From Motilimonas eburnea (GTDB lineage: Bacteria > Pseudomonadota > Gammaproteobacteria > Enterobacterales > CBDFNC01), in the NCBI RefSeq assembly GCF_021295345.1, contig NZ_JAIMJB010000001.1, positions 310,001 through 374,000 on the forward strand: a stretch of 64,000 nucleotides of DNA. Reading direction: 5' to 3'. A model generated the notes under the pieces. It ran no database searches, was not told the DNA's origin, and saw nothing but the letters and a program-made list of their open reading frames with translations. How positions within the stretch are numbered: position 1 is the first letter of the stretch; every line of letters starts with the position of its first letter. This document shows, in pieces, positions 18,094 through 20,900 of the stretch. The translations under genes were made by a program, and so were the position numbers.

Positions 18094-18227
18094 GGGGCAT
18101 CTCCTGCAAAATTTTGTGCAAATTCTAACGCCTTTAGCTGGTTTTTGCTATGCTGGCGCGCAATTGCATGATTTACCTCGCCACCATGGCGGGTGATATC
18201 CCTTTTGCTTTAGACAGGAGTGAACGT

Positions 18228-19277
18228 TTGGAATTCTTATACGACTATGGTTTATTTTTTGCTAAAACCCTGACCTTTGTTGCAGCGGTGTTGGCCGTTA
18301 TCATTACCGGTGTTGCTTTGGCGTCAAAGCAAAAAGGACAAAAAGGTGAGTTACAAATCACCGATCTTTCTGAACAAATGAGTGACAACAAGACGCATAT
18401 AGAAGAGCAATTGCTATCGGAGCAAGAGTTAAAGGCTAAACATAAAGCGGAGAAAAAAGCGGCCAAAGAGGCGAAAAAAGCAGCCAAGAAAACCCCAGCA
18501 GCAACCGAAGATGCCGTTGAAAATAAAGTGTATGTGGTCGATTTCAAAGGCAGCATTGACGCAAAAGAAGTCACGTCTTTACGCCAAGAAATTACCGCTA
18601 TTTTAGGGGTGGCTCAGCCAAATGATGAAGTGTTTGTGCGCCTTGAAAGTGGCGGCGGCATGGTGCATGGCTACGGGTTAGCGGCTTCACAACTGCAGCG
18701 CTTACGTGACAAGGGAATAAACCTCACGGTGTCGGTGGATAAAGTGGCGGCCAGTGGTGGTTATATGATGGCGTGTGTCGCCCCTAAAATTATTGCAGCT
18801 CCTTTTGCCATTGTTGGCTCTATCGGTGTTATCGCGCAAATTCCTAACTTTAATCGGCTACTGAAAAAGCACGATGTGGACTTTGAACAAATGACCGCGG
18901 GGGAATTTAAACGCACCGTAACCATGTTTGGTGAAAATACCGAAAAGGGCAAAGAGAAGTTCCAACAAGAGCTTGAAGAAACCCATAGCTTGTTTAAAGA
19001 ATTTGTCAGCAGTAACCGCCCGCAGCTGGACATCAATAAAGTGGCGACAGGTGAACACTGGTATGGCAGTCAAGCCTTTTCCCTTAACTTAATCGATAAG
19101 ATCCAAACCAGTGATGATTACTTGTTGCAGCTAAACGAAACGAAAAAAATTATTTCGGTTCGTTATGTGACCAAGAAAAAACTGGCGGATAAAATCGCCC
19201 ACGGTGCATCAATGGCATTGGAGCGCTGTTTAATGAAGTTATGGCAGCAAGGCAAGGGGCCGTTTTTAAACAGCTAG
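18228..19277 (+). CDS. sohB: Inner membrane S49 protease SohB
   Basis: ~349 aa: an N-terminal membrane segment (residues ~8-32), a Lys/Ala-rich linker (~65-97), then an S49 peptidase domain with nucleophile Ser176 in VAASGGYMM and the general-base candidate Lys229 in GEFKRT, 53 residues later as in SppA-type Ser-Lys dyads. Homology to E. coli SohB (MELLSEYGLFLAK) begins at TTG 18228, with AGGAG 7 nt upstream; the longer ATG frame from 18150 adds non-homologous residues. Probably degrades membrane or signal peptides. Confidence 0.9.
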   Translation: MEFLYDYGLFFAKTLTFVAAVLAVIITGVALASKQKGQKGELQITDLSEQMSDNKTHIEEQLLSEQELKAKHKAEKKAAKEAKKAAKKTPAATEDAVENKVYVVDFKGSIDAKEVTSLRQEITAILGVAQPNDEVFVRLESGGGMVHGYGLAASQLQRLRDKGINLTVSVDKVAASGGYMMACVAPKIIAAPFAIVGSIGVIAQIPNFNRLLKKHDVDFEQMTAGEFKRTVTMFGENTEKGKEKFQQELEETHSLFKEFVSSNRPQLDINKVATGEHWYGSQAFSLNLIDKIQTSDDYLLQLNETKKIISVRYVTKKKLADKIAHGASMALERCLMKLWQQGKGPFLNS

Positions 19278-19296: not shown

Positions 19297-19328
19297 TGGG
19301 CAGACGAATTTGGCTGCCCAATTTTGTT
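19297..19328 (+). terminator. sohB terminator
   Basis: TGGGCAG and CTGCCCA form a 7-bp stem around a 10-nt loop, followed by ATTTTGTT, 20 bp after the sohB stop. Confidence 0.75.
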
Positions 19329-19423
19329 GGATCCCATTCAAGTCCTAGTGGGAGTCGAGCTTGCTCGGCGAATAACATTACCTCAAACTCAGGCCCAAGC
19401 TCACACTCACACTTAACTAGGCC

Positions 19424-19582
19424 CTAGTAAAGTAAACTATAGAGTTTACGACGATAAGCACTGGCGGTTGGATCACTAGTTGGAGTGTTAGAGCGGGTCG
19501 TTAGCATATCCATAAAGGCTTGTTTTACCTTATCGTCCAAACCAAGCTCCTGTGGGAGTCGAGCTTGCTCGGCGAATAACAT
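19424..19582 (-). pseudogene. cnoX C-terminal copy 1 (159-nt open frame)
   Basis: Reads ATG then LFAEQARLPQELGLDDKVK and ends in the same SAYRRKLYSLLY tail as CnoX. A GAGGTA precedes the ATG by only a few nt. The last ~37 codons derive from cnoX; the first part is translated REP-like hairpin. I read it as a partial gene duplicate; expression is possible but unproven. Confidence 0.5.
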
Positions 19583-19627
19583 TACCTCAAACTCAGGCCC
19601 AAGCTCACACTCACACTTAACTAGGCC

Positions 19628-19786
19628 CTAGTAAAGTAAACTATAGAGTTTACGACGATAAGCACTGGCGGCTGGATCACTAGTTGGAGTGCTAGAGCGG
19701 GTCGTTAGCATATCCATAAAGGCTTGTTTTACTTTATCGTCCAAACCAAGCTCCTGTGGGAGGCGAGCTTGCGCGGCGAATAACAC
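19628..19786 (-). pseudogene. cnoX C-terminal copy 2 (159-nt open frame, GTG)
   Basis: Same length and tail as copy 1, but the ATG is GTG and the upstream head carries an internal deletion relative to the other units (AACACCCTCAGGTTCACAC). Two hairpin substitutions (GGCGAGCTTGCGCGGC) weaken its palindrome. Confidence 0.45.
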
Positions 19787-19817
19787 CCTCAGGTTCACAC
19801 TCACACTTAACTAGGCC

Positions 19818-19976
19818 CTAGTAAAGTAAACTATAGAGTTTGCGACGATAAGCACTGGCGGCTGGATCACTAGTTGGAGTGTTAGAGCGGGTCGTTAGCA
19901 TATCCATAAAGGCTTGTTTTACCTTATCGTCCAAGCCAAGCTCCTGTGGGAGTCGAGCTTGCTCGGCGAATAACAT
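19818..19976 (-). pseudogene. cnoX C-terminal copy 3 (159-nt open frame)
   Basis: Same 159-nt frame and CnoX tail. Its head, next to the real cnoX stop, carries four TCAAAC hexamers instead of one (~19980-20006). In the cnoX frame these read as Glu-Phe repeats just past the TAG stop. Confidence 0.5.
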
Positions 19977-20039
19977 TACCTCAAACTCAAACTCAAACTC
20001 AAACTCAGGCCCAAGCTCACACTCACACTTAACTAGGCC

Positions 20040-20900
20040 CTAGTAAAGTAAACTATAGAGTTTGCGACGATAAGCACTGGCGGCTGGATCACTCGAGTGG
20101 GTCGTTAGCATATCCATAAAGGCTTGTTTTACTTTACCGTCCAAACTATTCATGTCTTGATGTAACACTTGATACAACAACTCTAATGCCTCTTCTAAAC
20201 GGTTCACTTGGCTGTATTGGATGGCTAGCTCAAAGCTTAACAACGGGCTAGGATTGGCTGCGATTTGTGCTTCTAGGGCGCGGATCTCAGGCGTATCGGC
20301 AGCGGCTTTAGCCAGTTCAATCTGCGCAATAACGTGGTGATACAGGTCGTCTTGGTCGATAAGTTTAATCGCCTCCGTCAACGCTTGCGCTTCAGCAATA
20401 TGTCCTAACTCAATATGGGCTTTGGCAAGCATGATTTGTGCCTTGGCTAACTCGGGCTTGAGGGCTAACACTTGCTTAATCGTCGTGATTGCCGCTTCAA
20501 AGGTTTGCAGCTCTAATTGGCCTTGGGCTTGTTGTAGTAATAGCTCGGCCTCATCTGGTAAGTGCTTTTGTAAAATGGCGCGAATTTCACCTTCCTCTTG
20601 ATTTCCCGCAAAACCATCACATGGCTGGCCGTTGACAAACATGGCCGTTGTCGGCAGGGCTTGTACGCCAAATTGCATCGCAATGGCTTGATCAACTTCA
20701 CAGTTGATCTTGGCAAGGACGAATTGGCCGGCGAATTCCTGAGCTAACTTTTCTAGGGTGGCGACAAGCGCAACGGACTCTTCGTGGCTGGGGGCCCAAA
20801 ATGTCACCATGACAGGTTGAGTGTTGGAGCCTTCTAGAATGACGGCTTGGAAATTATCTAATGAAATATCAATAATATTCGATTGCATCTTGGTTTGCAT
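20040..20900 (-). CDS. cnoX: Thioredoxin-like chaperedoxin CnoX/YbbN
   Basis: 286 aa: a thioredoxin fold (residues ~8-115, with PVMVTFWAPSHEES and the cis-Pro region ALPTTAMFVNG) followed by TPR-like helices (~120-286). The active-site position reads WAPSHEES with no cysteine, so it is not a classical CXXC reductase; YbbN-type proteins act as holdases that protect substrates and pass them to chaperones. ATG 20900 has AAGGAG ~12 nt upstream; ATG at codon 5 is an alternative. The last ~37 codons are repeated three times downstream (see the array). Divergent from the ABC gene pair. Confidence 0.9.
   Translation of the reverse strand: MQTKMQSNIIDISLDNFQAVILEGSNTQPVMVTFWAPSHEESVALVATLEKLAQEFAGQFVLAKINCEVDQAIAMQFGVQALPTTAMFVNGQPCDGFAGNQEEGEIRAILQKHLPDEAELLLQQAQGQLELQTFEAAITTIKQVLALKPELAKAQIMLAKAHIELGHIAEAQALTEAIKLIDQDDLYHHVIAQIELAKAAADTPEIRALEAQIAANPSPLLSFELAIQYSQVNRLEEALELLYQVLHQDMNSLDGKVKQAFMDMLTTHSSDPAASAYRRKLYSLLY

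Follow-up and report, generated by a model that had tools for sequence, protein, structure and literature searches.

REP clusters have been described as tandemly reiterated together with flanking DNA (PMC3733652, PMC3116915). The ordered REPIN clusters of P. fluorescens SBW25 consist of tandem repeats that include the flanks, and some of them adjoin RAYT genes (PMC3116915). For RAYT genes, flanking REPs headed by GT(A/G)G have been described (PMC2817692). Here we describe a tandem array located 3' of the cnoX gene of Motilimonas eburnea, in a stretch of 64,000 nucleotides (contig NZ_JAIMJB010000001.1, positions 310,001 to 374,000) that we refer to as the window and to which all coordinates without a locus identifier belong.

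The array fits the reiterated REP-cluster kind: its units run head to tail, each with a REP and local flank, and similar clusters are present elsewhere in the genome. With the GTAG-tagged REP clusters of PMC3733652 it shares the GT(A/G)G head, the palindrome and the site downstream of a gene, as well as the tandem repetition of REPs, single or paired, along with flanking DNA that varies. Unlike there, the flank at cnoX takes in the terminal part of a coding sequence, stop codon included; in the passages of that article consulted we did not find the inclusion of gene ends singled out, nor did our partial coverage of the literature yield a dedicated paper on REP-linked duplication of gene ends. 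The ordered REPIN clusters of SBW25 (PMC3116915) resemble the array in their tandem, near-identical units including flanks, but the unit at cnoX holds a single REP and not an inverted pair. E. coli BIME-2 arrays (PMC2817692) are likewise intergenic tandem arrays of REP-bearing units, whereas they are built of BIME-1-like inverted pairs and the cnoX unit combines a gene tail with one REP.

Architecture of the array behind cnoX

The cnoX gene (20040..20900, minus strand) encodes a protein of 286 aa with thioredoxin and TPR domains (Pfam Thioredoxin, TPR_19 and TPR_20), and its orthologues in the relatives have the identical C-terminus YRRKLYSLLY. Judged from its sequence, CnoX (20040-20900) would be devoid of a cysteine at the thioredoxin active-site position (WAPSHEES), while a cysteine in INCE, perhaps equivalent to E. 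coli Cys63, appears to be retained. On the opposite side of the array lies a convergent sohB-type S49 peptidase gene (18150..19277, plus strand; Pfam Peptidase_S49_N and Peptidase_S49). The hairpin TGGGCAG...CTGCCCA followed by a T run (19297..19320; fold z = -2.46) is terminator-like for both genes. Since this hairpin is located beyond the array, the array lies within the cnoX 3' untranslated region.

TRF reported a unit of 204 bp in 4.0 copies at 19339-20146, with a score of 1165 that is far above chance. The last ~35 codons of cnoX are present in three extra copies downstream of the gene, with tail stops on the minus strand at 20040-20042, 19818-19820, 19628-19630 and 19424-19426. The first-pass annotation had seen the cnoX 3' end repeated three times together with a REP-like hairpin, at spacings of 222, 190 and 204 bp between stops; TRF and the stop positions confirm the repeats, and all three spacings are right. 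Where it estimated ~37 repeated codons including the stop, the duplicated end of cnoX comprises the last 34 codons plus TAG (U0, 20040..20146, minus strand).

In gene orientation, each unit reads from the cnoX tail through TAG and a 3' UTR stretch of ~30-60 nt containing hexamer runs to a REP, which is followed by the next tail. The three tail copies on the minus strand (U1, 19818..19936; U2, 19628..19746; U3, 19424..19542) have in common a 12-bp insertion (19872-19883, 19682-19693 and 19478-19489, respectively) that adds NTPT or STPT and is absent from cnoX itself and from the relatives. Two substitutions relative to cnoX, GGT to GAT and CAC to CGC, are also common to all three. The REP after cnoX, GTGGGAGTCGAGCTTGCTCGGCGA, is found at 19946..19969 on the plus strand, and those of the second (19756..19779, one mismatch), third (19552..19575) and fourth unit (19348..19371) are on the same strand. 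The outer flank of the fourth-unit REP, CATTCAAGTCCTA, differs from the internal junctions and is for this reason probably the original flank; behind it comes the terminator-like hairpin common to cnoX and the convergent gene. No clean microhomology was seen at the first duplication junction.

REP family and RAYT locus in the genus

The REP within each unit belongs to a dispersed family, with 48 matches (at most 3 mismatches) in the 4.6-Mb genome and 0 for the reversed control. It is composed of GTGGGAG, CGAGCTTGCTCG and GCGA, with a short imperfect palindrome behind the GT(A/G)G head, the head being GTAGGAG in the sister species. Among the three same-genus relatives (G001, G002 and G003), the family has 19 matches in G001 and 23 in G002, most of them headed by GTAG instead of GTGG, and 0 in G003. 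Beside REP duplications (L063 1171, L076 1115, L079 976/1218) we observed a second family of palindromes, GTRGGAGCCNCAGTAATGNGGCGA, which has its head and end in common with the first and is perhaps another REP subtype.

G001 has an intact RAYT gene, which matches NF047646 (NCBIfam, REP-associated tyrosine transposase) at 146.9 bits and is bordered by REPs on either side; strict REP matches nearby are all on one strand, and inverted flank similarity is seen only in the comparison of G001 with G002. In G002 the gene is broken into two frames, and at the syntenic site of M. eburnea the same neighbours enclose just a 121-bp duplicated REP-bearing stretch. No RAYT was found in the M. eburnea genome by PF01797; the sister RAYT protein gave a single weak match of 25 bits to a longer ORF. 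One RAYT locus is thus encountered in three states within the genus: intact in G001 (L104 1078-1533), broken in G002 (L105 1317-1559), and gone with a REP duplication left in the genome of the window (L079 960-1300).

Duplicated gene ends at other REP clusters

Besides cnoX, tandem duplications of at least 40 bp that include local flanking DNA are present at nine REP clusters of the genome, and two of these nine copy a gene 3' end. One is the end of a MocR-like gene (L063, gene end at 1015, shift of 155 bp), the other that of a chemotaxis receptor gene (L092, gene end at 1001, shift of 148 bp). A CbiX-family gene tail, QSVLDEEKERIDNGCKETALAHR, occurs 8 times with REP pairs in G001, at shifts of about 171/250 bp and with stops in all three frames. 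Gene-tail duplications associated with REPs hence recur in the genus, and their shifts (155, 148 and about 171/250 bp) follow no fixed frame. The CbiX-tail array (L103 1010-2965, G001:C2) comprises ~8 tails and a terminator-like hairpin, some of its units consist of a REP remnant only, and it includes a run of N. A single-tail state of this array was sought in M. eburnea, G002 and G003, where no true CbiX orthologue was found.

As a background we took tandem duplications from 400 kb of the genome outside the window. Four non-coding ones were detected, two of them at REP clusters and two being tRNA gene arrays. For two of four to fall at REP clusters by chance, the probability is ~3e-4, based on six clusters in the 400 kb and ~500 bp for each, the latter length being our choice. 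In L114 (2489-3350, G000:C22), four tRNA-Met genes are located among decayed tRNA-like copies that ARAGORN rejects as tRNAs.

Reading frame, origin and meaning of the array

The spacings had raised the idea that the array preserves the cnoX reading frame, and with it a reservoir of alternative C-termini, in which ribosomes reading through the cnoX TAG would append a module of ~70 residues, again ending in YRRKLYSLLY. It is true that 222 and 204 are multiples of three, that no linker has a stop in the frame of its preceding tail, and that YRRKLYSLLY is identical in every tail copy. However, only the 222-bp and 204-bp steps lead into the next tail in its own frame, whereas the 190-bp step in the middle of the array enters the next copy out of frame and meets a stop inside that copy. 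The 222-bp step is a 204-bp unit plus 18 bp derived from a CTCAAA hexamer run (19980..20029), which leaves a single unit length behind both frame-keeping steps and a probability of 1/3 that this length is divisible by three. Among dinucleotide shuffles of the 85-nt linker, 14% are open. Beyond the last tail stop the frame stays open for ~48 codons with no tail ahead, so an open frame does not depend on a tail coming next. The copies differ from each other by both synonymous and non-synonymous changes, in counts too small for a selection test and, for U0 at codons 20-21, disturbed by the placement of the 12-bp gap. Relative to cnoX, they carry the insertion and several non-synonymous codons such as the GGT-to-GAT change, and the other gene-tail duplications shift by 155 and 148 bp and in mixed frames. 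The array is absent from G001, G002 and G003, and a scan of named genomes for orthologues of it returned, at the level of gene matches, only distant cnoX genes of Vibrionaceae. The first-pass annotation had held that the frame-keeping is chance if relatives show unrelated intergenic sequence here with the frame not conserved, and unrelated sequence is what the same-genus relatives have after cnoX.

We found no sign of selection on the downstream frame across copies or relatives, and frame-keeping as a functional signal was discarded on account of the 190-bp step, the hexamer-derived 222-bp step, the shuffles and the out-of-frame parallel duplications. The apparent frame-keeping is best explained by chance, and a service of the tail copies as alternative C-termini is very improbable. 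It would be just as surprising if the tail copies were expressed, be it as readthrough CnoX or as separate peptides of ~52 residues (MLFAEQ...YSLLY), with the repeated segment modulating CnoX or a CnoX partner.

The cnoX array is very probably a gene tail duplicated in tandem in association with a REP and as such belongs to a known kind; the REP is inside the duplicated unit. Slipped duplication seeded by the hairpin had been suggested beforehand. The REP-linked tandem duplication is borne out by the dispersed REPs, the RAYT in a sister species and the similar loci; that the hairpin seeded the first duplication we only infer, as the fold of one REP at cnoX is weak (about -4 kcal/mol) and does not surpass that of shuffles. 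We likewise infer replication slippage as the cause, rather than RAYT action. In the latter case, a RAYT would cut single-stranded REP DNA and rejoin it with flanking DNA. Such an origin finds some footing in the RAYT locus of the genus, which is intact in one sister and whose syntenic site in M. eburnea itself has a REP-bearing duplication, but it is unlikely given that flank lengths differ at each locus, that no common cut position was seen, and that a recognisable RAYT is no longer present in this genome. More doubtful still is that the array would have been kept by selection as a 3' end element of the cnoX mRNA, acting on RNA stability or termination. Its position between the cnoX stop and the terminator-like hairpin would suit this role, and REPs are usually located downstream of genes (PMC3733652); the weak folding of the REPs and the lack of the array in the relatives speak against it. 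An assembly artefact might come to mind for a draft of 71 contigs, as short reads assemble long arrays poorly and the parallel array of G001 has a run of N. It is nevertheless hardly credible, with four units that are mutually distinguishable in length (190 to 222 bp) and sequence (84 to 97% identity), though the copy number of the array could be understated.

The simplest account of how the array arose starts from a single duplication, whose product received an insertion and was multiplied later on. A REP would have been located in the cnoX 3' untranslated region at the outset. Duplication of the segment between the outer REP edge and some position within the 3' end of cnoX would have created the tandem of cnoX tail, 3' UTR and REP. 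The extra copy would then have acquired a few substitutions besides the 12-bp insertion, and insertion-bearing copies may have been multiplied to three via slippage or unequal exchange. Individual units would later have changed in length through a 14-bp deletion and hexamer expansion, the order of these later steps not being fixed by four copies. The tail copies would be non-coding passengers inside the cnoX 3' UTR.

REP-linked duplication can thus capture gene ends, and has done so repeatedly within one genus. Arrays of this sort mimic protein-coding modules, and frame-keeping within them is a poor guide to function. With its RAYT intact, broken or gone, the genus provides a small natural series for comparing the turnover of REPs and their clusters.
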